DNA from: Dysidea avara
Lineage: Eukaryota; Porifera; Demospongiae; Dictyoceratida; Dysideidae
Direction of reading: 5' to 3'
Assembly: GCF_963678975.1 (NCBI RefSeq)
Contig: NC_089272.1
Coordinates: 23,262,200 to 23,326,199, forward strand
DNA length: 64,000 nt
Shown: one piece after another, positions 31,540 through 64,000 of the stretch
Position numbering within the stretch: position 1 is the first letter of the stretch
Layout: every line of letters starts with the position of its first letter
Notes under the pieces: model-generated
Told to the model about the DNA's origin: nothing
Seen by the model: only the letters and a program-made list of their open reading frames with translations
Databases searched by the model: none
Position numbers and translations under genes: made by a program

Positions 31540-31960
31540 AAACTGGTGGCAGGTGGTGACAAGCAAAACTTACAATATTTAAGTAGTGGCTACAGTTTTT
31601 TTATAGTTGTGGTGATCTCTTCCAAACTGGTCATACAAGTATCAAATTGATAGCTATTATACACAAGTGGTAGCAGCTAGCTATTATTCAACAGGTGGTG
31701 ACAAGCAAAAACTTAGAAAAACCATTATACAGTTAATAATTGTGGTGGCACAAGCAAGAGATACTGGTATTAGCAATCCTTGCAAACAGGTGGCTATTGT
31801 TCAGTTGTGGCATACACTAAGAATTGGCTACAGCTTATATATTATGCAAATTTATATGTATGTGGTGGAAAGGCTGAACCTAACAACATTCCAATGTTAA
31901 TGGTAGTGGAAACCCTACTTCCTAACAAGCAGGTGGCTATACAATTTCAAACTATTTTAT
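31540..31960 (+). repeat. Degenerate edge of the 121-bp satellite
   Basis: Diverged monomers at the left border: GTGGTGGCACAAGCAAGAG near 31741, CAAACAGGTGGCTATTGTTC near 31785, AATGGTAGTGGAAACCCTA near 31899 and CTAACAAGCAGGTGGCTATA near 31922. Identity to the main array falls off leftwards over about 400 bp, as expected where unequal exchange no longer homogenises copies. Confidence 0.75.
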
Positions 31961-33099
31961 AAAGGTTACAATTTTAACAATGGTGGCACAAGCAACAGCT
32001 ACCAATTCATTCCAATGCTAATGGTAGTGGCAATCCTAATTCCTAACAAGCAGGTGGCTATACAATTTCAAACTATTTTATAAAGGTTACAATTTTAACA
32101 ATGGTGGCACAAGCAACAGCTACCAATTCATTCCAACGTTAATGGTAGTGGCAATCCTAATTCCTAACAAGCAGGTGGCTATACAATTTCAAACTATTAA
32201 CAATGATGGCACAAGCAACAGCTACCAATTCATTCCAATGCTAATGGTAGTGGCAATCCTAATTCCTAACAAGCAGGTGGCTATACAATTTCAAACTATT
32301 TTATAAAGGTTACAATTTTAACAATGATGGCACAAGCAACAGCTACCAATTCATTCCAATGCTAATGGTAGTGGCAATCCTAATTCCTAACAGGCAGGTG
32401 GCTATACAATTTCAAACTATTTTATAAAGGTTACATTTTAACAATGGTGGCACAAGCAACAGCTACCGATTCATTCCAATGTTAATGGTAGTGGCAATCC
32501 TAATTCCTAACAAGCAGGTGGCTATACAATTTCAAACCATTTTATAAAGGCTTACAATTTTAGCAGTGGTGGCACAAGCAACAGCTACCGATTCATTCCA
32601 ATGTTAATAGTAGAGGCAATCCTAATTCCTAACAAGCAGGTGGCTATACAATTTTATAAAGGCTTGCAATTTTAACAATGGTGGCACAAGCAAGAACTAC
32701 CGATTCATTCCAATGTTAATGGTAGTGACAATCCTAATTCCTAACAGGCAGGTGGCTGCACAATTTCGAACTGTTTTATTAAGGCTTACAATTTTAACAA
32801 TGGTGGCACAAGCAAGAGCTACCGATTCATTCCAATGTTAATGGTAGTTGCAATCCTAATTCCTAACAAGCAGGTGGCTATACAATTTCAAACTATTTTA
32901 TAAAGGTTACAATTTTAACAATGGTGGCACAAGCAACAGCTACCAATTCATTCAAATGCTAATGGTAGTGGCAATCCTAATTCCTAACAAGCAGGTGGCT
33001 ATACAATTTCAAACTATTTTATAAAGGTTACAATTTTAACCAATTCATTCCAATGCTAATGGTAGTGGCAATCCTAATTCCTAACAAGCAGGTGGCTAT

Positions 33100-36000
33100 A
33101 CAATTTCAAACTATTTTATAAAGGTTACAATTTTAACAATGGTGGCACAAGCAACAGCTACCAATTCATTCAAATGCTAATGGTAGTGGCAATCCTAATT
33201 CCTAACAAGCAGGTGGCTATACAATTTCAAACTATTTTATAAAGGTTACAATTTTAACAATGGTGGCACAAGCAACAGCTACCAATTCATTCCAATGCTA
33301 ATGGTAGTGGCAATCCTAATTCCTAACAAGCAGGCGGCTATACAATTTCAAACTATTTTATAAAGGTTACAATTTTAACAATGGTGGCACAAGCAACAGC
33401 TACCAATTCATTCCAATGTTAATGGTAGTGGCAATCCTAATTCCTAACAAGCAGGTGGCTGTACAATTTCAAACTATTTTATAAAGGTTACAATTTTAAC
33501 AATGGTGGCACAAGCAACAGCTACCAATTCATTCCAATGTTAATGGTAGTGGCAATCCTAATTCCTAACAAGCAGGTGGCTGTACAATTTCAAACTATTT
33601 TATAAAGGTTACAATTTTAACAATGGTGGCACAAGCAACAGCTACCAATTCATTCAAATGCTAATGGTAGTGACAATCCTAATTCCTAACAAGCAGGTGG
33701 CTATGCTACCAATTCATTCCAATGTTAATGGTAGTGGCAATCCTAATTCCTAACAAGCAGGTGGCTATACAATTTCAAACTATTTTATAAAGGTTACAAT
33801 TTTAACAATGGTGGCACAAGCAACAGCTACCAATTCATTCCAATGCTAATGGTAGTGGCAATCCTAATTCCTAACAAGCAGATAGCTATACAATTTCAAA
33901 CTATTTTATAAAGGTTACAATTTTAACAATGGTGGCACAAGCAACAGCTACCAATTCATTCCAATGCTAATGGTAGTGGCAATCCTAATTCCTAACAAGC
34001 AGGTGACTATACAATTTCAAAATATTTTATAAAGTTACAATTTTAACAATGGTGGCACAAGCAACAGCTACCAATTCATTCCAATGCTAATGGTAGTGGC
34101 AATCCTAATTCCTAACAGGCAGGTGGCTATACAATTTCAAACTATTTTATAAAGGTTACAATTTTAACAATGGTGGCACAAGCAACAGCTACCAATTCAT
34201 TCCAATGCTAATGGTAGTGGCAATCCTAATTCCTAACAAGCAGATAGCTATACAATTTCAAACTATTTTATAAAGGTTACAATTTTAACAATGGTGGCAC
34301 AAGCAACAGCTACCAATTCATTCCAATGCTAATGGTAGTGGCAATCCTAATTCCTAACAAGCAGGTGGCTATACAATTTCAAAATATTTTATAAAGTTAC
34401 AATTTTAACAATGGTGGCACAAGCAACAGCTACCAATTCATTCCAATGCTAATGGTAGTGGCAATCCTAATTCCTAACAGGCAGGTGGCTATACAATTTC
34501 AAACTATTTTATAAAGGTTACAATTTTAACAATGGTGGCACAAGCAACAGCTACCAATTCATTTCAATGCTAATGGTAGTGGCAATCCTAATTCCTAACA
34601 AGCAGATAGCTATACAATTTCAAACTATTTTATAAAGGTTACAATTTTAACAATGGTGGCACAAGCAACAGCTACCAATTCATTCCAATGCTAATGGTAG
34701 TGGCAATCCTAATTCCTAACAAGCAGGTGGCTATACAATTTCAAAATATTTTATAAAGTTACAATTTTAACAATGGTGGCACAAGCAACAGCTACCAATT
34801 CATTCCAATGCTAATGGTAGTGGCAATCCTAATTCCTAACAGGCAGGTGGCTATACAATTTCAAACTATTTTATAAAGGTTACAATTTTAACAATGGTGG
34901 CACAAGCAACAGCTACCAATTCATTCCAATGTTAATAGTAGAGGCAATCCTAATTCCTAACAAGCAGGTGGCTATACAATTTCAAACCGTTTTATAAAGG
35001 CTTACAATTTTAACAATGGTGGCACAAGCAAGAGCTGCCGATTCGTTCCAATGTTAATGGTAGTGACAATCCAAATTCCTAACAAGCAGGTGGCTATACA
35101 ATTTCAAACCGTTTTATAAAGGCCTACACTACAATTTTAGCAGTGGTGGCACAAGCAAGAGCTACCGATTCATTCCAATGTTAATGGTAGTGGCAATCCT
35201 AATTCCTAATAAGCAGGTGGCTATACAATTTCAAACCATTTTATAAAGGCTTACAATTTTAGCAGTGGTGGCACAAGCAACAGCTACCGATTCATTCCAA
35301 TGTTAATAGTAGAGGCAATCCTAATTCCTAACAAGCAGGTGGCTATACAATTTTATAAAGGCTTGCAATTTTAACAATGGTGGCACAAGCAAGAACTACC
35401 GATTCATTCCAATGTTAATGGTAGTGACAATCCTAATTCCTAACAGGCAGGTGGCTGCACAATTTTGAACTGTTTTATTAAGGCTTACAATTTTAACAAT
35501 GGTGGCACAAGCAAGAGCTACCGATTCATTCAAATGTTAATGGTAGTTGCAATCCTAATTCCTAACAAGCAGGTGGATATACAATTTCAAACTATTTTAT
35601 AAAGGTTACAATTTTAACAATGGTGGCACAAGCAACAGCTACAAATTCATTCCAATGCTAATGGTAGAGACAATCCTAATTCCTAACAAGCAGGTGGCTA
35701 TATAATTTTATAAAGGCTTACAGTTTTAACATTGGTGGCACAAGCAAGAGCTGCCGATTCGTTCCAATGTTAATGGTAGTGGCAATCCTAATTCCTAACA
35801 AGCAGGTGGCTATACAATTTCAAACCGTTTTATAAAGGCTTACAATTTTAGCAGTGGTGGCACAAGCAAGAGCTGCCGATTCGTTCCAATGTTAATAGTA
35901 GTGACAATCCAAATTCCTAACAAGCAGGTGGCTATACAATTTCAAACCGTTTTATAAAGGCCTACACTACAATTTTAGCAGTGGTGGCTTAAGCAAGAGC

Positions 36001-36884
36001 TGCCGATTCATTCCAACGTTAATGGTAGTGGCAATCCTAATTCCTAACAAGCAGGTGGCTATACAATTTCAAACCGTTTTATAAAGGCTTACAATTTTAG
36101 CAGTGGTGGCACAAGCAACAGCTACCGATTCATTCTAATGTTAATGGTAATTGCAATCCTAATTCCTAACAAGCAGGTAGCTATACAATTTTATAAAGGC
36201 TTGCAATTTTAACAATGGTGGCACAAGCAAGAACTACCGATTCATTCCAATGTTAATGGTAGTGACAATCCTAATTCCTAACAAGCAGGTGGCTATACAA
36301 TTTTATAAAGGCTTGAAATTTTAACAATGGTGGCACAAGCAAGAACTACCGATTCATTCCAATGTTAATGGTAGTGACAATCCTAATTCCTAACAGGCAG
36401 GTGGCTGCACAATTTCGAACTGTTTTATTAAGGCTTATAATTTTAACAATGGTGGCACAAGCAAGAGCTACCGATTCATTCTAATGTTAATGGTAATTGC
36501 AATCCTAATTCCTAACAAGCAGGTGGCTATACAATTTTATAAAGGCTTGCAATTGTAACAATGGTGGCACAAGCAAGAACTACCGATTCATTCCAATGTT
36601 AATGGTAGTGACAATCCTAATTCCTAACAGGCAGGTGGCTGCACAATTTCTAACTGTTTTATTAAGGCTTACAATTTTAACAATGGTGGCACAAGCAACA
36701 GCTACCAATTCATTCAAATGCTAATGGTAGTGGCAATCCTAATTCCTAACAGGCAGGTGGCTATACAATTTCAAACTATTTTATAAAAGTTACAATTTAA
36801 CAATGGTGGCACAAGCAACGGCTACAAATTCATTCCAACATTAATGGTAGAGACAATCCTAATTCCTAACAAGCAGGTGGCTAT
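33100..36884 (+). repeat. Higher-order repeat copy 1 (3,785 bp)
   Basis: Every rare monomer variant I checked here recurs exactly 3,785 bp downstream: GCAGGTGACTAT at 33999 and 37784, and TTATAAAAGTTACAATTTAA at 36781 and 40566. Within it a trimer period of 362 bp is visible from the variant AAGCAGATAGCTAT (GATAGC at about 33881, 34243 and 34605). Confidence 0.93.
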
Positions 36885-39800
36885 ATAATTTCAAACTATT
36901 TTATAAAGGTTACAATTTTAACAATGGTGGCACAAGCAACAGCTACCAATTCATTCAAATGCTAATGGTAGTGGCAATCCTAATTCCTAACAAGCAGGTG
37001 GCTATACAATTTCAAACTATTTTATAAAGGTTACAATTTTAACAATGGTGGCACAAGCAACAGCTACCAATTCATTCCAATGCTAATGGTAGTGGCAATC
37101 CTAATTCCTAACAAGCAGGCGGCTATACAATTTCAAACTATTTTATAAAGGTTACAATTTTAACAATGGTGGCACAAGCAACAGCTACCAATTCATTCCA
37201 ATGTTAATGGTAGTGGCAATCCTAATTCCTAACAAGCAGGTGGCTGTACAATTTCAAACTATTTTATAAAGGTTACAATTTTAACAATGGTGGCACAAGC
37301 AACAGCTACCAATTCATTCCAATGTTAATGGTAGTGGCAATCCTAATTCCTAACAAGCAGGTGGCTGTACAATTTCAAACTATTTTATAAAGGTTACAAT
37401 TTTAACAATGGTGGCACAAGCAACAGCTACCAATTCATTCAAATGCTAATGGTAGTGACAATCCTAATTCCTAACAAGCAGGTGGCTATGCTACCAATTC
37501 ATTCCAATGTTAATGGTAGTGGCAATCCTAATTCCTAACAAGCAGGTGGCTATACAATTTCAAACTATTTTATAAAGGTTACAATTTTAACAATGGTGGC
37601 ACAAGCAACAGCTACCAATTCATTCCAATGCTAATGGTAGTGGCAATCCTAATTCCTAACAAGCAGATAGCTATACAATTTCAAACTATTTTATAAAGGT
37701 TACAATTTTAACAATGGTGGCACAAGCAACAGCTACCAATTCATTCCAATGCTAATGGTAGTGGCAATCCTAATTCCTAACAAGCAGGTGACTATACAAT
37801 TTCAAAATATTTTATAAAGTTACAATTTTAACAATGGTGGCACAAGCAACAGCTACCAATTCATTCCAATGCTAATGGTAGTGGCAATCCTAATTCCTAA
37901 CAGGCAGGTGGCTATACAATTTCAAACTATTTTATAAAGGTTACAATTTTAACAATGGTGGCACAAGCAACAGCTACCAATTCATTCCAATGCTAATGGT
38001 AGTGGCAATCCTAATTCCTAACAAGCAGATAGCTATACAATTTCAAACTATTTTATAAAGGTTACAATTTTAACAATGGTGGCACAAGCAACAGCTACCA
38101 ATTCATTCCAATGCTAATGGTAGTGGCAATCCTAATTCCTAACAAGCAGGTGGCTATACAATTTCAAAATATTTTATAAAGTTACAATTTTAACAATGGT
38201 GGCACAAGCAACAGCTACCAATTCATTCCAATGCTAATGGTAGTGGTAATCCTAATTCCTAACAGGCAGGTGGCTATACAATTTCAAACTATTTTATAAA
38301 GGTTACAATTTTAACAATGGTGGCACAAGCAACAGCTACCAATTCATTTCAATGCTAATGGTAGTGGCAATCCTAATTCCTAACAAGCAGATAGCTATAC
38401 AATTTCAAACTATTTTATAAAGGTTACAATTTTAACAATGGTGGCACAAGCAACAGCTACCAATTCATTCCAATGCTAATGGTAGTGGCAATCCTAATTC
38501 CTAACAAGCAGGTGGCTATACAATTTCAAAATATTTTATAAAGTTACAATTTTAACAATGGTGGCACAAGCAACAGCTACCAATTCATTCCAATGCTAAT
38601 GGTAGTGGCAATCCTAATTCCTAACAGGCAGGTGGCTATACAATTTCAAACTATTTTATAAAGGTTACAATTTTAACAATGGTGGCACAAGCAACAGCTA
38701 CCAATTCATTCCAATGTTAATAGTAGAGGCAATCCTAATTCCTAACAAGCAGGTGGCTATACAATTTCAAACCGTTTTATAAAGGCTTACAATTTTAACA
38801 ATGGTGGCACAAGCAAGAGCTGCCGATTCGTTCCAATGTTAATGGTAGTGACAATCCAAATTCCTAACAAGCAGGTGGCTATACAATTTCAAACCGTTTT
38901 ATAAAGGCCTACACTACAATTTTAGCAGTGGTGGCACAAGCAAGAGCTACCGATTCATTCCTATGTTAATGGTAGTGGCAATCCTAATTCCTAATAAGCA
39001 GGTGGCTATACAATTTCAAACCATTTTATAAAGGCTTACAATTTTAGCAGTGGTGGCACAAGCAACAGCTACCGATTCATTCCAATGTTAATAGTAGAGG
39101 CAATCCTAATTCCTAACAAGCAGGTGGCTATACAATTTTATAAAGGCTTGCAATTTTAACAATGGTGGCACAAGCAAGAACTACCGATTCATTCCAATGT
39201 TAATGGTAGTGACAATCCTAATTCCTAACAGGCAGGTGGCTGCACAATTTTGAACTGTTTTATTAAGGCTTACAATTTTAACAATGGTGGCACAAGCAAG
39301 AGCTACCGATTCATTCAAATGTTAATGGTAGTTGCAATCCTAATTCCTAACAAGCAGGTGGATATACAATTTCAAACTATTTTATAAAGGTTACAATTTT
39401 AACAATGGTGGCACAAGCAACAGCTACAAATTCATTCCAATGCTAATGGTAGAGACAATCCTAATTCCTAACAAGCAGGTGGCTATATAATTTTATAAAG
39501 GCTTACAGTTTTAACATTGGTGGCACAAGCAAGAGCTGCCGATTCGTTCCAATGTTAATGGTAGTGGCAATCCTAATTCCTAACAAGCAGGTGGCTATAC
39601 AATTTCAAACCGTTTTATAAAGGCTTACAATTTTAGCAGTGGTGGCACAAGCAAGAGCTGCCGATTCGTTCCAATGTTAATAGTAGTGACAATCCAAATT
39701 CCTAACAAGCAGGTGGCTATACAATTTCAAACCGTTTTATAAAGGCCTACACTACAATTTTAGCAGTGGTGGCTTAAGCAAGAGCTGCCGATTCATTCCA

Positions 39801-40669
39801 ACGTTAATGGTAGTGGCAATCCTAATTCCTAACAAGCAGGTGGCTATACAATTTCAAACCGTTTTATAAAGGCTTACAATTTTAGCAGTGGTGGCACAAG
39901 CAACAGCTACCGATTCATTCTAATGTTAATGGTAATTGCAATCCTAATTCCTAACAAGCAGGTAGCTATACAATTTTATAAAGGCTTGCAATTTTAACAA
40001 TGGTGGCACAAGCAAGAACTACCGATTCATTCCAATGTTAATGGTAGTGACAATCCTAATTCCTAACAAGCAGGTGGCTATACAATTTTATAAAGGCTTG
40101 AAATTTTAACAATGGTGGCACAAGCAAGAACTACCGATTCATTCCAATGTTAATGGTAGTGACAATCCTAATTCCTAACAGGCAGGTGGCTGCACAATTT
40201 CGAACTGTTTTATTAAGGCTTATAATTTTAACAATGGTGGCACAAGCAAGAGCTACCGATTCATTCTAATGTTAATGGTAATTGCAATCCTAATTCCTAA
40301 CAAGCAGGTGGCTATACAATTTTATAAAGGCTTGCAATTGTAACAATGGTGGCACAAGCAAGAACTACCGATTCATTCCAATGTTAATGGTAGTGACAAT
40401 CCTAATTCCTAACAGGCAGGTGGCTGCACAATTTCTAACTGTTTTATTAAGGCTTACAATTTTAACAATGGTGGCACAAGCAACAGCTACCAATTCATTC
40501 AAATGCTAATGGTAGTGGCAATCCTAATTCCTAACAGGCAGGTGGCTATACAATTTCAAACTATTTTATAAAAGTTACAATTTAACAATGGTGGCACAAG
40601 CAACGGCTACAAATTCATTCCAACATTAATGGTAGAGACAATCCTAATTCCTAACAAGCAGGTGGCTAT
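36885..40669 (+). repeat. Higher-order repeat copy 2 (3,785 bp)
   Basis: Direct tandem copy of 33100-36884. By eye I found only isolated substitutions, such as GTGGTAAT near 38247 for GTGGCAAT and CATTCCTATG near 38962 for CATTCCAATG. The junctions are at GGCTATATAATTT (about 36880 and 40665), where the two copies exit into different sequence. Such low divergence means a very recent duplication, or duplicated haplotypes in the assembly. Confidence 0.9.
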
Positions 40670-43418
40670 ATAATTTTATAAAGGCTTACAGTTTTAACAT
40701 TGGTGGAACAAGCAAGAGCTGCCGATTCGTTCCAATGTTAATGGTAGTGGCAATCCTAATTCCTAACAAGCAGGTGGCTATACAATTTCAAACCGTTTTA
40801 TAAAGGCCTACAATTTTAGCAGTGGTGGCACAAGCAAGAGCTGCCGATTCATTCCAATGTTAATGGTAGCGACAATCCTAATTCCTAACAAGCAGGTGGC
40901 TATACAGTTTCAAACTGTTTTATAATGGCTTACAATTTTAGCAGTGGTGGCACAAGCAAGAGCTGCCGATTCGTTCCAATGTTAATAGTAGTGACAATCC
41001 AAATTCCTAACAAGCAGGTGGCTATACAATTTCAAACCATTTTATAAAGGCCTACACTACAATTTTAGCAGTGGTGGCACAAGCAAGAGCTGCCGATTCA
41101 TTCCAATGTTAATAGTAGAGGCAATCCTAATTCCTAACAAGCAGGTGGCTATACAATTTTATAAAGGCTTGCAATTTTAACAATGGTGGCACAAGCAAGA
41201 ACTACCGATTCATTCCAATGTTAATGGTAGTGACAATCCTAATTCCTAACAAGCAGGTTGCTATACAATTTCAAACCGTTTTATAAAGGCTTACAATTTT
41301 AGCAGTGGTGGCACAAGCAACAGCTACCGATTCATTCCAATGTTAATAGTAGAGGCAATCCTAATTCCTAACAAGCAGGTGGCTATACAATTTTATAAAG
41401 GCTTGCAATTTTAACAATGGTGGCACAAGCAAGAACTACCGATTCATTCCAATGTTAATGGTAGTGACAATCCTAATTCCTAACAGGCAGGTGGCTGCAC
41501 AATTTCGAACTGTTTTATTAAGGCTTACAATTTTAACAATGGTGGCACAAGCAAGAGCTACCGATTCATTCTAATGTTAATGGTAATTGCAATCCTAATT
41601 CCTAACAAGCAGGTGGCTATACAATTTTATAAAGGCTTGCAATTTTAACAATGGTGGCACAAGCAAGAACCACCAATTCATTCCAATGTTAATGGTAGCG
41701 GCAATCCTAAATCCTAACAGGCAGGTGGCTGTACAATTTTATAAAGGCTTGCAATTTTAACAATGGTGGCACAAGCAAGAACCACCAATTCATTCCAATG
41801 TTAATGGTAGCGGCAATCCTAATTCCTAACAGGCAGGTGGCTGTACAATTTTATAAAGGCTTGCAATTTTAACAATGGTGGCACAAGCAAGAACTACTGA
41901 TTCATTCCAATGTTAATGGTAGTGACAATCCTAATTCCTAACAGGCAGGTGGCTGCACAATTTCGAACTGTTTTATTAAGGCTTACAATTTTAACAATGG
42001 TGGCACAAGCAAGAGCTACTGATTCATTCCAATGTTAATGGTAGTGGCAATCCTAATTCCTAACAAGCAGGTGGCTATACAATTTTATAAAGGCTTGCAA
42101 TTTTAACAATGGTGGCACAAGCAAGAACCACCGATTCATTCCAATGTTAATGGTAGTGGCAATCCTAATTCCTAACAAGCAGGTGGCTGTACAATTTTAT
42201 AAAGGCTTACAATTTTAACAATGTGGCACAAGCAAGAACTACCGATTCATTCCAATGTTAATGGAAGTGACAATCCTAATTCCTAACAAGCAGGTGGCTG
42301 TACAATTTTATAATGGCTTACAATTTAACAATGGTGGCACAAGCAAGAGCTACTGATTCATTCCAATGTTAATGGTAGAGGCAATCCTAATTCCTAACAA
42401 GCAGGTGGCTATACAATTTTATAAAGGCTTGCAATTTTAACAATGGTGGCACAAGCAAGAACCACCGATTCATTCCAATGTTAATGGTAGCGGCAATCCT
42501 AATTCCTAACAAGCAGGTGGCTATACAATTTCAAACTATTTTATAAAGACTTACAATTTTAACAATAGTGGCATAAGTAAGAGCTGCCGATTCATTCCAA
42601 TGTTAATGGTAGCGAGAATCCTAATTCCTAACAAGTAGGTGGCTATATAATTTTATAAAGGGTACAATTTTAACAGTGGTGGCACAAGCAAGGCTACCAA
42701 TTCATTCCAACATTAATGGTAGAGACAATCCTAATTCCTAACAAGCAGGTGGCTATATAATTTTATAAAAGCTTACAGTTTTAACATTGGTGGCACAAGC
42801 AAGAGCTGCCGATTCGTTCCATTGTTAATGGTAGTGGCAATCTTAATTCCTAACAAGCAAGTGGCTATACAATTTCAAACTATTTTATAAAGGCCTACAA
42901 TTTTAGCAGTGGTGGCACAAGCAACAACTACCGATTCATTCCAATGTTAATGGTAGCGACAATCCTAATTCCTAACAGGCAGGTGGTTGCACAATTTTGA
43001 ACTGTTTTATTAAGGCTTACAACTTTAACAATCGTGGCACACGCAAGAGCTGCCGATTCACTCCAATGTTAATGGTAGTGGAAACCTTAATTCCTAACAA
43101 GCAGGTGTCTATACATTTTCAACCTGTTTTATAAAGGCTTGCAATTTTAACAATGGTGGCACAAGCAAGAACCACCGATTTATTCCAATGTTAATGGTAG
43201 CGGCAATCCTAATTCCTAACAAGCAGGTGGCTATATAATTTTATAAAGGCTTGCAATTTTAACAATGGTGGCACAAGCAAGAGTTACCTATTCATTGCAG
43301 TGTTAATGGTAGCGGCAATCCTAATTCCTAACAAGCAGGTGGCTATACATTTTCAAACTGTTTTATAAAGTGCATGTAGTTGTATTAGTGTTGCTAACCA
43401 CACTATACTGTACTATAG

Positions 43419-47001: not shown

Positions 47002-47324
47002 AATCTAATCCAAAACAGCCAAGCTGTAAAAAAAGTGTGCGGCCCTCAGAAAGGCTATGGTGAAAAAAGATGTGAAATCCAAGGTGGCGGCCAAGAAATG
47101 GCTGTGATGGTAGGTTAATGGTAAAAATTTTAATAACGACAATTCAGGTGAATTTTTGTGCCGCTTCACAAAATTTACCTAAATTGTCATTATTAAAATT
47201 TTTACCATTAACCTACCATCACAGCCATTTCTTGGCCGCCACCTTGGATTTCACATCTTTTTTCACCATAGCCTTTCTGAGGGCCGCACACTTTTTTTAC
47301 AGCTTGGCTGTTTTGGATTAGATT
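47002..47324. mobile_element. Foldback element with about 145-bp arms, inserted in the DIRS element
   Basis: AATCTAATCCAAAACAGCCA at the left is matched exactly by TGGCTGTTTTGGATTAGATT at the right. The arms continue (CCTCAGAAAGGCTATGGTG, AAGAAATGGCTGTGATGG, AATGGTAAAAATTTTAATAA) to a loop of a few tens of bases. No coding content. Confidence 0.9.
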
Positions 47325-59044: not shown

Positions 59045-61455
59045 ATTATTTCACAGTGTCTTCCAGCTACTAGTTCTTTTGAGCAAGCTTGAAGTCAGTC
59101 CTGATGTAGCCATTATTATGTTACATCCTGAGGAGACGTATTCATATCCAAGAACTATTTTGTCTCTGTCAGCAAGTTACGTATACTGTGCAGCTAACTG
59201 GAATGTTACTGAAGGTACAATAATTGCTTAACCATTTCTTTGTGTTGTGTTTATTACTAATTTACAGTGAAGCGGCAGCCAACATGTTTGCTTGAAGTGA
59301 ATGTCATAAACAGTAAGTACTAGTGATGTTTCCTGTATGTTAATGTTATCTGTAGTTCACCAATTCAGTTGTTAAGTTTGTGTTTACTTTTCTCTTTTAG
59401 GCTTGAAGCAACGGGGAATTTTGTTTACTGAAGCTAGTGATACAAAGTTGTTTTGCACTGCTACACTAGACAACCAATTTTTGTTCACATGTGGTGCGTC
59501 TAAGAACAGCTTTCAGATTTATATCACCGAAACAGGTACTGTGATATTTGTACTGATAAGGTTTTGTACTTATTATTTATTTTAGTAAATACCTCTGTAT
59601 TTCAGAATACCTCTTTAATGTGATTCACTATGCACCTGTAATGTATGCAATACCTGATAGAGATTTTGGTGCAGTACATGGATTTTTTCCAATTCCCTTC
59701 CTTTGTATAAAGTTGTCCCACTTAAAGTGTCCCACATACAAGCTGTAAGGAATATGACGTGCTTTCTTCACTCAGTTATATTTGGTTTGTGTGTATTATA
59801 TTTTATGTATGAAGAAACTTTTGGGCACAGGCTTGAGCCATTTATGCTCTGTGAGGAATGCTCCAATATTTCGTCCCTTGTTATTAAGATAGTTGGTTGA
59901 TTGCTCTGTTTACTGTGTTGAAATGAACACATTTAAAAAGTATAGATCAGCTTGACTGTTGTATTACAGTATTTGCCCTATTATTATTAATGTATACTCT
60001 AAAGCTTACCGAGGTCTCAAAATCATACACTGTGTAAAATTTCTCTTTCCATGGATACTGTCTGTTATGGTCTTACACCGTTGTACACCTTATTGTACCC
60101 CTCGTATTGATGACTGCTCTATTAGAGTAATCTGGTGTATGTCTTTGGGGTATCAGTGAGTTAATTGATTACCATAATTAATGTGACAAAATTTTTGAAA
60201 ATCAATTTTTGTACACAACACTGAAGTTGACTTTCACCATCAATAGATAGTCACACCAATACCATAGCCATGCCGCTGATTTACTCGGACTGTTTTTCAC
60301 AACTGGATTTCTGGAGACATGTGCCAGCCACTTGCACCTTGGAATGCCACTGGCCAGATGGAACATGAGGCTAGAGTAACTGGCACCTTTGGACAGTTTC
60401 CCAGATGTTTACTGCATTCATTTCTTTTACTTTGAGTGGCACTGCATGGTGGTATTAAGGCTGGAGACTCCAAATGACCGGCTCGGCCACTTTCTGTTGA
60501 TATACCAGACCACCCCTACCACCATCCATGGTTGTGTGCTTATATTATAGATACTGCCATGAAAATAGCTACTCAAAATTATGGTTATATCAGTAGCTAG
60601 CTTACTATGGTCTAAAGTCTTATACACTATGGTTATAGTTGCATTCATGGTGAAATTTCAACTCATAGCTTTTGGCATACTGTATTGACATGTTTATAAT
60701 TGCTCTCTCACAATGTGTACATTGACAGTTTTCCACATTAGATTATATATTTTTGCAAACAGATCAACTAATTCAGAGTGTATTTGGACACCACAGTACA
60801 ATTTTATGTTTGGATTATAATCAAGACAGAGGGGTTATGTTCCTATAATGAAGATGGTCTGATTGCAAGTGGATCATGTGACTGCACTGTAATGTTGTGG
60901 AAATGGAGTGAACAAAAATTCCGAATTATTAGTTCAACGTCAGAGTCTATGAAAAGTAAATTATTGTGTGATTATTTGTGCATTGTCTGTTTATCTGTTT
61001 CTATTTAGTAAATTCATACAGATATTGACTATTGGTTTTGTACTGTTAGGAAAGTCTATAGTTTGGCAGTCCTCTTCAGTCCACGTTTATAACATTTCTT
61101 ATTTTGCTGCCTGCTAGCATGTTAACTCCACCTGTTTTGTAAAAGTGCCTAGAACTACAGTAACCTTTTCTCCACTTATAAACACATTTCAGTATACTTA
61201 TTCATTGTTCATCTGTCCAATGCTATGTACAGCAAAATTAAATCTTGTAGCATTCCTCAACACTGCATTTACTCCTCAAAAAGTATTAAGATGTAGCCTG
61301 CTGTGTGTATGTACATGAATTACATACTTTCCATTATATTAGATACTACTGAACCAATAGCAGTACTAACTGGTCATCATACACCAGTTGTATCTATTGC
61401 ACTGAACTGCAGTTTGGGAATAGTTGCAAGTGGAGCTCTGTGTAAATCATGAAAT
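59045..61455 (+). pseudogene. BEACH-WD40 gene, WD40 exons
   Basis: Exons: 59045-59214 (LEVSPDVAIIMLHPEETYSY, ILSLSASYVYCAANWNVTE); 59268-59312 (VKRQPTCLLEVNVINS); 59401-59535 (LKQRGILFTEASDTKLFCTA, DNQFLFTCGASKNSFQIYIT); 60763-60955 (DQLIQSVFGHHSTILCLDYN, then after a one-base shift EDGLIASGSCDCTVMLWKWS); 61343-61455 (DTTEPIAVLTGHHTPVVSIA, LNCSLGIVASGALC). These match the C-terminal WD40 propeller of neurobeachin-type proteins in order and spacing. Exon 59045 also enters in a frame that does not match its predecessor. A TGA follows in the last exon and the remaining propeller blades are not found; the gap and duplications begin here. Confidence 0.85.
59540..60760. other. Intron of the BEACH-WD40 gene
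   Basis: About 1.2 kb between WD40 exons. GACTGCTCTATTAGAGTA occurs at about 60112, part of a motif dispersed in the window. No transposon ends could be defined. Confidence 0.5.
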
Positions 61456-61571
61456 AAACTAAAACTCTAAACTACAATCTGTTAAAATAATTCTGGTAGA
61501 CTAGATCTACCAGAATTATTTTATTTCATGATTTACACAGAGCTCCACTTGCAACTATTCCCAAACTGCAG
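61407..61571. repeat. Palindrome 1 around a hairpin-forming spacer
   Basis: Arms 61407-61458 and 61520-61571 are exact inverses (52 bp); the gap begins immediately after the right arm. The 61-bp spacer includes AACTAAAACTCTAAACTACA and the self-complementary halves TAAAATAATTCTGGTAGA / TCTACCAGAATTATTTTA, separated by 5 bases. Confidence 0.92.
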
Positions 61572-61771
61572 NNNNNNNNNNNNNNNNNNNNNNNNNNNNN
61601 NNNNNNNNNNNNNNNNNNNNNNNNNNNNNNNNNNNNNNNNNNNNNNNNNNNNNNNNNNNNNNNNNNNNNNNNNNNNNNNNNNNNNNNNNNNNNNNNNNNN
61701 NNNNNNNNNNNNNNNNNNNNNNNNNNNNNNNNNNNNNNNNNNNNNNNNNNNNNNNNNNNNNNNNNNNNNNN
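61572..61771. other. Assembly gap, 200 N
   Basis: Exactly 200 undetermined bases, probably a placeholder of unknown true size. It lies between duplicated sequences, so assembly here is doubtful. Confidence 0.99.
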
Positions 61772-62692
61772 GCCTAGAACTACAGTAACCTTTTCTCCAC
61801 TTATAAACACATTTCAGTATACTTATTCATTGTTCATCTGTCCAATGCTATGTACAGCAAAATTAAATCTTGTAGCATTCCTCAACACTGCATTTACTCC
61901 TCAAAAAGTATTAAGATGTAGCCTGCTGTGTGTATGTACATGAATTACATACTTTCCATTATATTAGATACTACTGAACCAATAGCAGTACTAACTGGTC
62001 ATCATACACCAGTTGTATCTATTGCACTGAACTGCAGTTTGGGAATAGTTGCAAGTGGAGCTCTGTGTAATCATGAAATAAACTAAAACTCTAAACTACA
62101 ATCTGTCTAAACTAATTCTGGTAGACTAGATCTACCAGATTATTTTCATCTTCCATGCTATTACACAAGAGTAAATCTTGTACTATTCCCAAACTGCAGT
62201 TCAGTGCAATAGATACAACTGGTGTATGATGACCAGTTAGTACTGCTATTGGTTCAGTAGTATCTAATATAATGGAAAGTATGTAATTCATGTACATACA
62301 CACAGCAGGCTACATCTTAATACTTTTTGAGGAGTAAATGCAGTGTTGAGGAATGCTACAAGATTTAATTTTGCTGTACATAGCATTGGACAGATGAACA
62401 ATGAATAAGTATACTGAAATGTGTTTATAAGTGGAGAAAAGGTTACTGTAGTTCTAGGCACTTTTACAAAACAGGTGGAGTTAACATGCTAGCAGGCAGC
62501 AAAATAAGAAATGTTATAAACGTGGACTGAAGAGGACTGCCAAACTATAGACTTTCCTAACAGTACAAAACCAATAGTCAATATCTGTATGAATTTACTA
62601 AATAGAAACAGTACAAAACCAATAATCAATATCTGTATGAATTTACTAAATAGAAACAGATAAACAGACAATGCACAAATAATCACACAATA

Positions 62693-63039
62693 ATTATAAT
62701 CTCAGACAAGATCTTGCATTAAGGTATTGCCTCTGTGGCCTTCATTTAGGACCTGGTGTTTATTGAGCTCAGCGGATAAATACAGTATTTCTGCTGACAA
62801 CAGTACAAACACCAAACACTGCATTACAACATAAAATAATTCTGGTAGATCTAGTCTACCAGAATTATTTTAACAGATTGTAGTTTAGAGTTTTAGTTTA
62901 TGTTGTAATGCAGTGTTTGGTGTTTGTACTGTTGTCAGCAGAAATACTGTATTTATCCGCTGAGCTCAATAAACACCAGGTCCTAAATGAAGGCCACAGA
63001 GGCAATACCTTAATGCAAGATCTTGTCTGAGATTATAAT
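62693..63039. repeat. Palindrome 3 around the same spacer in opposite orientation
   Basis: Arms 62693-62833 and 62899-63039 are essentially exact inverses (141 bp). The spacer carries the same hairpin (TTCTGGTAGA..TCTACCAGAA) and CTAAACTACAATCTGT segment as palindrome 1, but reversed. Confidence 0.92.
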
Positions 63040-63244
63040 AGTAGGACAAGGCTTACTACAATTAATGAAACTCATGACTTTTCAAAGGGAAGTCAACAGC
63101 TAGATATATACTAAAGCTCATAAGGCTAAACATTTCTTCTCTTTAGTGGATAAGTGTATAATAAGTGGAAGCTAATTCATCCTACAGTCTTTTACAACAC
63201 AGTGATCAGACCCTTCAAGAACATACATTTGACAAACTTTGTTT

Positions 63245-64000
63245 TCCACAATGACATCTTTGAATTAGGGCTGGGACGATTATTGAAATTTACCTTTGAC
63301 TATTCGCTAATAAAATGTTCGAACATTCGAAGCTTCGGTATTAGCTTTCAAGTTACAGGTTATCTTGTATTTATGCACATCCTTCTTAGGTTTTATCTTT
63401 CTAAACCTATTTAATAAGTTTGTAAGAATTTGGAAAGTGCATAGCAGCAGTACTGAATGACGCGATCAATCGACTGCAAATGGGTGTGTCCACTATACTT
63501 CAATCATGCACAGGTAAACACCAAGTAATGGCTAACAGTACACCTTCCATGCATTATCTATCACATTACAAGGTGTTAAGGCTGCAACTATGGTAGTAAG
63601 CTGAACTTCGATTGTTTAAAAGTGGGCGTGTCACACGAAGATCGATCGCAAACAGACGAACATTGATCACGCAAGAGGAATAAGCAGCTGTCATGAAGAT
63701 GACGATGTTTATTTGTAATTCTTTAGTAGACTATGAGTGCATTATGAAGCTTCGATGATTGTTGTATTCACAGAAATATTACTTTAGTATCTCACGAGAT
63801 GCAGAATTTGTTTGTGTTCCACATGAAGCCGTATGAAAATTGCCAGATCTTATCTAGAGTTAATGTAGTTAAAAAGTGCACACAGCAATAAGCAAATGAT
63901 TGGCTGGATTCCTGGCACAGAGCTACTTTCTTTAAAAGACATAAAGCATGAATTTTCGAATTCAAGCTACCCTACCAGCCAAGACAAGAAAAGTCAACTC
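63245..64000. mobile_element. Possible end of a hAT-like element
   Basis: TTAGGGCTGGGACGATTATT near 63266-63285 resembles ends of hAT-type MITEs found in many animals, and is followed by TTCGAACATTCGAAGCTTC. No opposite end was found before the window stops. The rest to 64000 has no recognisable gene. Weak call. Confidence 0.3.

Follow-up and report, generated by a model that had tools for sequence, protein, structure and literature searches.

In the fold-back inverted duplications described by Hermetz et al. (2014, PMC3907307) and Al-Zain et al. (2023, PMC10622511), the reported cases have a single-copy (“disomic”) spacer with short inverted borders, while the inverted junctions reported from yeast (2024, PMC10766183) lie at repeats of 2–14 bp that in those data mostly span 40–80 bp in total. 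Inverted duplications are usually known only as end products. At the locus described here a single genome allows the presumed ancestor, an intermediate with the hairpin and the final inverted duplication to be aligned. The locus lies in the window, the 64,000-nt stretch of Dysidea avara DNA that was analysed. The assembly does contain the inverted repeats of this locus, which form two palindromes, not three. The segments follow one another in the order L-A-S-A′-B-S(inverted)-B′-R, where S is a hairpin spacer, and this order predicts a simple parent L-A-S-B′-R. The features, in window positions, are:

60959–61453, plus strand: segment A, left arm of the first palindrome, an inverted match to 62182–62695.
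61454–61524, plus strand: spacer S (71 nt), composed of ATAAA, an asymmetric stretch x, a perfect 18-bp hairpin (5-nt loop) and T.
61483–61523, no strand: hairpin H, whose second arm probably stems from an insertion of 17 nt, of which 16 nt form an exact reverse complement.
61525–61571, minus strand: start of A′ (the inverted copy of A), directly left of the gap, with junction microhomology TTTAT.
61572–61771, no strand: gap of exactly 200 N, taken as the scaffold join of two overlapping contig ends.
61772–62077, plus strand: end of A in a second, redundant assembly, equal to 61147–61453 except for one A missing near 62070.
62078–62181, no strand: S and the first A′ bases in a second, error-rich assembly (the “diverged middle pair”), from alignment to the other contig end.
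62182–62695, minus strand: A′, inverted copy of A, with 0 mismatches in 466 aligned nt, one additional 48-bp unit aside.
62559–62654, no strand: the 48-bp unit, in two tandem copies within A′ (one copy in A, two in paralog L009).
62693–62695, no strand: A′/B junction with 3-nt microhomology ATT.
62693–62830, minus strand: B, inverted copy of B′, which matches the reverse complement of 62902–63039 at 138 of 138 nt.
62831–62901, minus strand: the inverted S, on which the second palindrome is centred.
62902–63039, plus strand: B′, the original right flank of S, found directly after S in paralog L009.
63136–63139, no strand: deletion junction specific to the window, followed by family sequence that lies ~7–11 kb farther downstream in other copies.

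Around the two centres, the arms computed in the assembly are 61407–61462 with 61516–61571 (56 nt, 98%) and 62693–62839 with 62893–63039 (147 nt, 99%). The initial annotation of this DNA had given the arms as 52 and 141 bp; inverted arms are present at these places, but their extent was greatly underestimated, as 60995–61424 matches 62182–62611 in inverted orientation over 430 nt (100%) and 60959–61047 matches 62607–62695 over 89 nt (99%). It had also counted three successive palindromes. The inverted pairs are retained, whereas the count of three is not, because the stretches flanking the gap overlap: one junction, assembled twice, accounts for both “palindrome 1” and the diverged middle pair. 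Among 19 candidates scored across the genome, only the locus itself matches the A′/B joint over its full length. The right flank typical of the family persists to 63138, and an interstitial deletion of several kb begins ~100 bp past B′.

An assembly discontinuity at the feature, a criterion of our own and not one from the cited papers, is present as the 200-N gap between overlapping stretches. The pre-gap sequence (61147–61571) aligns with the post-gap sequence (61772–62199) at 95.6% over 431 alignment columns, and both contig ends agree with one single path, which suggests that two overlapping contigs at the first turn were left unmerged by the assembler. The first turn coincides with the gap and with two unmerged overlapping ends, and one version of it is error-rich. 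The divergence is limited to ~62070–62181, where it consists chiefly of single-base indels; the first 299 nt past the gap agree exactly with the other contig, and from 62182 onward the arm is mismatch-free again. This divergence looks like sequencing or base-calling error at a fold-back near a contig end rather than age. An older duplication as the source of the middle pair was rejected, the differences being confined to ~110 nt near the contig end, and with it falls the earlier argument that this divergence speaks against an artefact.

The ends of S (ATAAA/TTTAT) form a 5-bp inverted repeat, 71 bp overall, that is used by both turns. The 18-bp hairpin TAAAATAATTCTGGTAGA with its 5-nt loop lies at both palindrome centres in opposite orientation; the initial annotation had recognized both the common hairpin and the reversal of the spacer in its third palindrome, and 61454–61524 is indeed 100% reverse-complementary to 62831–62901. 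As single-stranded DNA, S folds at −16.0 kcal/mol (z −9.4). The 18-mer has five matches in the window (at most 3 mismatches) against 0.15 expected by shuffling, and 0 of 100 shuffles reach five. The hairpin pattern had no match in viral contigs or in prokaryote genome contigs, the 71-nt spacer none in plasmids and 60700–61571 none in phages. To our knowledge S is unlike the adapters commonly used in sequencing.

The window copy belongs to a small family of duplicated segments from a putative BEACH/WD40 gene. Segment A putatively comprises an intron and a WD40 exon from one copy of such a gene (LRBA/neurobeachin-like), with the exon peptide EPIAVLTGHHTPVVSIALNCSLGIVASGAL, to judge from weak matches to PDB sequences (best E 7.8e-9, to WD40 proteins; E 0.23 to LRBA; E 0.68 to neurobeachin) and from inspection by eye. 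The gene content and the introns look animal-like.

S or its pre-hairpin form was found at eight other loci, giving nine family loci with the window. The right flank belongs to the same family at all eight and the left flank at seven, the copy at C4:23.67 Mb having only ~33 nt of A before S. The straight parental order A-S-B′ occurs on the same chromosome as the window copy at C1:23634719 (L009), with the same perfect hairpin, and at C1:23990736 (L010), where 99 nt are missing in B′ and two hairpin bases are changed. This order at two loci agrees with a hairpin-dependent template switch or strand exchange, so that the mechanism proposed earlier is largely upheld; its three successive palindromes are not retained. 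None of the seven spacer copies tested elsewhere is a palindrome centre, a check that the initial annotation had suggested and that refutes a spacer always found in palindromes, though not the event at the window locus. An allele or relative sharing the double palindrome was not found.

The comparison of copies also bears on how the hairpin arose. An insertion of 17 nt (16 nt exact reverse complement, 1 nt loop) is present at three of the nine family loci (the window, C1:23.63 and C1:23.99), and the second hairpin arm is missing at the other six (C10, C4 at two loci, C2, C13 and C11). Because six copies are without this arm, the hairpin was probably born by the insertion. Related copies without the arm and an insertion that is the reverse complement of adjoining sequence are the marks of a template switch mutation, which probably accounts for the birth of the hairpin in this family. 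The C1:23.99 copy has one hairpin-arm base in common with the C13 copy, which is without the hairpin, so the copies do not fall into a clean tree. A and A′ share, at two positions, bases found in none of six aligned paralogs, indicating that A′ was copied after the window lineage split off.

We favor, with some reserve, a real inverted-repeat fusion over a library or assembly fold-back artefact. Exactly the same pair of 5-mers serves both turns, each with TTTAT microhomology, and ATT is used at the third joint. Since the 704-bp parental segment contains 33 interrupted inverted repeats (at least 5 bp, 40–80 bp total), two independent turns at the same one would be unlikely unless the hairpin directs the turns. 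Stretch x, between ATAAA and the hairpin, occurs once and not twice per palindrome, so that neither palindrome is a plain blunt fold-back. The arms show 0 mismatches in 466 nt (A/A′) and 0 in 138 nt (B/B′), against the 1.1–2% by which the two C1 paralogs differ. Perfect arm identity is expected equally from a library artefact.

More tentatively, and at somewhat less than an even chance, we propose that a hairpin born by template switching became a rearrangement hotspot, that the strands split and each capped one chromosome half, and that both mirror products of a single event were kept side by side and rejoined; the pre-hairpin, hairpin and double-palindrome stages would all survive as paralogs in one genome. 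The favored fusion itself, as distinct from this bolder reading, would have run in three steps. In the first, as the comparison of copies suggests, a template switch in the ancestor of the three same-chromosome copies would have inserted 17 nt, 16 of them the exact reverse complement of adjacent sequence, converting TAAAATAATTCTGGTAGACTAG to the perfect 18-bp hairpin. In the second, strands would have been exchanged at the 5-bp inverted repeat ATAAA...TTTAT enclosing the hairpin; the resulting structure is seen in the assembly, and in vivo A-S-A′ would be the turn formed from the top strand of S, and B-S(inverted)-B′ the one formed from its bottom strand, which can be imagined either as a cruciform extruded and split at a slipped base or as switching between leading and lagging strands at a fork. 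In the third, the two hairpin-capped halves would have been copied and rejoined via the 3-nt microhomology ATT, giving L-A-S-A′-B-S(inverted)-B′-R. The number and order of steps from turn to rejoining were not observed. The initial annotation's view of recurrent events at one hairpin accords with this scheme, in that switching did recur at one site, the hairpin itself seeming to derive from an earlier template switch.

An alternative that keeps an appreciable though lesser likelihood is that the chromosome runs straight (L-A-S-B′-R), and that the contig ends left and right of S are chimeras, produced by snap-back synthesis at the strong hairpin in amplification or by fold-back long reads, which the scaffolder joined with 200 N. 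The gap right at the turn, the unmerged overlapping ends, the error-rich second assembly and the straight order of both C1 paralogs all fit this account; fold-back reads are reported typically at 1–4% and at times at 20–30% of genomic reads (PMC12870357, citing the SAVANA authors), and artificial palindromes are described after whole-genome amplification (PMC6218980). The same paralogs tell against it in another respect: with the hairpins at C1:23.63 Mb (perfect) and C1:23.99 Mb (near-perfect, two substitutions) assembled straight, artefact reads would have had to outnumber straight ones only at the window locus. This control is small, a perfect hairpin being present at only one other locus. 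The account must further accommodate three joints (two turns and A′/B) to the right of the gap, contig ends that share one path, and the 48-bp unit that sets A′ apart from A. This 48-bp difference also weighs on the fusion, which needs a later loss or two haplotypes to explain it. A plain duplex-read or missed-adapter fold-back was rejected for the turns as assembled, as the asymmetric x would then flank both sides, which is not seen. Were the structure an artefact, the hairpin would still mark a site where assembly folds back at contig ends.

An unlikely alternative is a double-strand break right of S, after which the end folds back at ATAAA/TTTAT and is filled in, and replication yields a dicentric that later breaks and is rejoined (fold-back with breakage-fusion-bridge). 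While a single-copy spacer with short inverted borders is the signature reported for fold-back inverted duplications in the cases described (PMC3907307, PMC10622511), the parent deduced here has S once, yet each palindrome contains a full S, one per strand, and one broken end accounts for one palindrome only, so that the other would call for a further, mirror-image event at these 5-mers. The reading of S as a mobile or programmed element that creates palindromes or inserts at them was rejected as having practically no probability: S or its pre-hairpin form does occur at eight other loci, but in the same flanking family context (at C4:23.67 Mb on the right side only), with no new target site and with none of the seven tested a palindrome centre.

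For the favored inverted-repeat fusion, models in which the strands are split (cruciform or fork) can be told from the fold-back of a single broken end by the mirrored use of S. The presence of the stages in one genome would permit a direct test of whether hairpins seeded by small template switches go on to seed larger inversions.

The locus resembles the long-read fold-back and whole-genome-amplification artefacts of PMC12870357 and PMC6218980 in that a sequence is followed by its own reverse complement and the assembly is tangled; unlike those artefacts, described there as near-symmetric read fold-backs, it uses a defined 5-bp repeat on both strands and has a third joint. With the fold-back inverted duplications as reported (PMC3907307, PMC10622511) it has in common inverted copies around a single-copy spacer, S being bounded by ATAAA/TTTAT at both turns, but the event is interstitial and smaller than 1.5 kb, and both sides of one spacer are inverted-duplicated and rejoined. 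In place of the adjoining terminal deletion or translocation, or the ring, that follows a dicentric, the chromosome continues with the family right flank. As in the origin-dependent inverted-repeat amplification (ODIRA) described in PMC10766183, the junctions lie at a short interrupted inverted repeat, whose 5 bp and 71 bp total are within the reported range; in contrast to the interstitial inverted triplication between two different repeats described there, one repeat serves both turns and the inverted pieces meet at the new A′/B joint. Finally, as in the template switch mutations creating perfect hairpins that are described by Monttinen and Loytynoja (2022, PMC8794818), the arm is a short reverse-complement insertion adjoining its source and is seen against copies without it. 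Unlike the cases given there, the hairpin is seen here among duplicated gene copies in one genome, and once formed it becomes the site of a larger rearrangement.

The window, part of a single contig (C1:23262200-23326199) in the 550.8 Mb, 108-contig genome searched, carries on its plus strand a BEACH/WD40-type gene copy, recognized from translated exon peptides and PDB sequence matches of a hand-joined exon peptide (best E 7.8e-9 for WD40 proteins, 0.23 for LRBA and 0.68 for neurobeachin). A tandem repeat of ~11.5 kb (31887-43370, unit ~121 bp) with an apparent higher-order duplication (separate rows 33705-37489 and 37490-43370) and a near-perfect, MITE-like palindrome (47002-47324, 155-bp arms, 13-nt centre) also lie in the window.

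The initial annotation had counted palindrome 1 and a diverged middle pair as separate palindromes on one spacer. The stretches flanking the window's sole gap (61147-61571 and 61772-62199) are 95.6% identical over 431 aligned columns, with the first 299 nt identical and the differences, chiefly single-base indels, confined to ~62070-62181. The two stretches overlap, and therefore represent a single turn assembled twice. The gap is exactly 200 N, the default gap size of a common Hi-C scaffolder. The clean first arm and poor second arm would be explained by the drop in nanopore accuracy described past the midpoint of inverted duplications (PMC7229812), although nanopore may not be the platform here. 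After merging the overlap, the order between the left (L) and right (R) flanks is L-A-S-A'-B-S(inverted)-B'-R:

Features of the double palindrome (window coordinates)
60959-61453: A, left-arm segment
61454-61524: S, hairpin spacer, read from the top strand
61572-61771: gap, 200 N
right end at 62695: A', inverted A
62693-62830: B, inverted B'
62831-62901: S(inverted), read from the bottom strand
62902-63039: B', original right flank of S

Across 466 aligned nt A and A' show no mismatches, nor do B and B' across 138 nt; A' contains one more copy of a 48-bp unit than A. The joints share 5 nt (S/A', TTTAT), 3 nt (A'/B, ATT) and 5 nt (S(inverted)/B', TTTAT). The bulk of B', together with the beginning of R, consists of a short dispersed repeat (62944-63100; 71-77% identity at 30 or more other places), SINE-like by distribution alone.

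An origin of both turns in one S predicts L-A-S-B'-R as the parental order. A search of the window's own genome with S (10 candidates scored, a lower bound) gave at least 15 matches. Ten of these start at query base 1 and fall at ten places, three within the window; another five, located at five of the ten, are self-matches of the hairpin. The order A-S-B' is found at C1:23634719 (L009) with a perfect hairpin, and at C1:23990736 (L010) with two hairpin bases changed and B' short by 99 nt. On C10, C4 (two loci), C2 and C13, CTAG runs directly into TATG without the second hairpin arm, and this site is flanked by the same family sequence, apart from C4:23.67 Mb, which has only ~33 nt of A. The C11 copy, found with A and B' as queries, also lacks the second arm. 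In total the hairpin is present at three of the nine family loci found. Inverted flanks around S were seen at none of the seven loci examined (C11 left out); the check suggested in the initial annotation, whether other spacer copies are also palindrome centres, thus gave a negative result among them. An 811-nt palindrome (L009:950-1759, 97.4%) lies at the left edge of L009's homology to the window. In the C10, C2, C13 and partly the C4 copies, a 1.25 kb exon-containing segment (59367-60620) lies inverted with respect to its flanks; L010 does not show this inversion, and at the right breakpoint of the segment the C11 copy is collinear with the window.

In the hairpin-bearing form 17 nt (ATCTACCAGAATTATTT) sit between CTAG and TATG, 16 of them an exact reverse complement and the first A in the loop; with the following TA they form an 18-bp reverse complement of the immediately preceding sequence. 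The pattern of presence, with C11, the most diverged copy (86-90% identity), among those lacking the arm, leads us to infer a gain rather than six losses. Where the C1 copies carry the insertion, C11 has 8 other nt (AGTTGGTG; L022, C11:9603727-9603964 region), which suggests that this site was altered repeatedly. One arm base is common to the C1:23.99 Mb copy and the hairpin-less C13 copy, so exchange between copies or recurrent mutation has to be taken into account. The predicted fold of the 71-nt S as single-stranded DNA has -16.0 kcal/mol (z -9.4; none of 200 shuffles folds as well), against -0.5 (z +1.6) for the arm-less form. Template switching is reported to create hairpins in one step (PMC8794818), and short foldback-templated inverted duplications to occur at breaks (PMC11724301).

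The stretch between ATAAA and the hairpin occurs once per palindrome. Folding at the hairpin itself, or at the end of a fragment, would leave it on both sides or neither; to give the form seen here, ATAAA must pair with TTTAT across S. We propose that the two strands of a single S separated, each capping one side. This would account for the top-strand S of the first palindrome and the bottom-strand S of the second, a reversal correctly noted in the initial annotation. The 704-bp parental segment contains 33 interrupted inverted repeats (at least 5 bp, 40-80 bp total), and both turns use the same one. It is 5 bp, and 71 bp overall; the repeats at inverted junctions described in yeast (PMC10766183) are 2-14 bp long and span mostly 40-80 bp.

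We consider the double palindrome probably, if far from certainly, a real event. That it is an artefact is a doubtful possibility to be taken seriously, given the gap, the overlapping ends left unmerged, fold-back reads of known frequency (as reported in PMC12870357 and PMC6218980) and the error-rich second copy of the turn, whose divergence had previously been put forward against an artefact. However, two paralogous hairpins, perfect at C1:23.63 Mb and near-perfect at C1:23.99 Mb, were assembled straight (a control of only two loci), both contig ends agree on a single path, the arms differ by a repeat unit, and the third joint (A'/B) lies away from the hairpin and gave no second full-length match on search of the genome. 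Fold-back of a broken end, as described in PMC3907307 and PMC10622511, accounts for the spacer signature but for just one of the two palindromes.

For a real duplication, the paralogs provide a scale of divergence. The window copy differs from the C1:23.99 Mb copy at 31 of 2806 columns (1.1%) and the A' arm from the C1:23.63 Mb copy at 10 of 514 (1.9%); at these rates ~7-12 arm-to-arm differences are expected over 604 positions, and none is observed. Gene conversion between the arms could be another source of this identity. At two positions A and A' agree on bases found in none of six aligned paralogs, indicating that A' was copied from its own lineage's A. The 48-bp unit, with two copies in A' and the C1:23.63 Mb copy and one in A and the other five aligned copies, suggests that A lost one copy later or that a second haplotype is involved.

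About 100 bp right of B', a window-specific joint (63136-63139, ~2 nt in common at ~63138 by eye) jumps to family sequence from further downstream in the same orientation. The joined sequence elsewhere lies downstream by ~7.3 kb (C10), 7.8 and 11.4 kb (two C4 loci) and 11.2 kb (C13), with a partial match, short of the joint, ~16 kb downstream of the C1:23.99 Mb copy; on C2 the matching sequence is in reverse orientation, placing C2 outside a simple downstream-deletion picture. The joint marks a window-specific deletion, which probably removed later exons of the gene copy. An open frame starting at ~4290 in L009 is, by eye, what we take to be the following WD40 exon, and no matches above 100 nt to L009, L010, L014 or L015 were seen in the stretch that runs from 63601 past the window's right end to 73500 (window coordinates). 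Judged from these comparisons, we regard the gene copy as probably truncated, and the effect of the rearrangement on the gene as probably small. A repeat at 63263-63500 has at least 31 matches spread over many contigs, at 90-95% identity (scoring covered 40 of 625 candidates).

Every ingredient is known already. We did not encounter a mirrored pair at one hairpin alongside preserved precursor stages in the open-licence literature searched, and we claim nothing beyond that literature.
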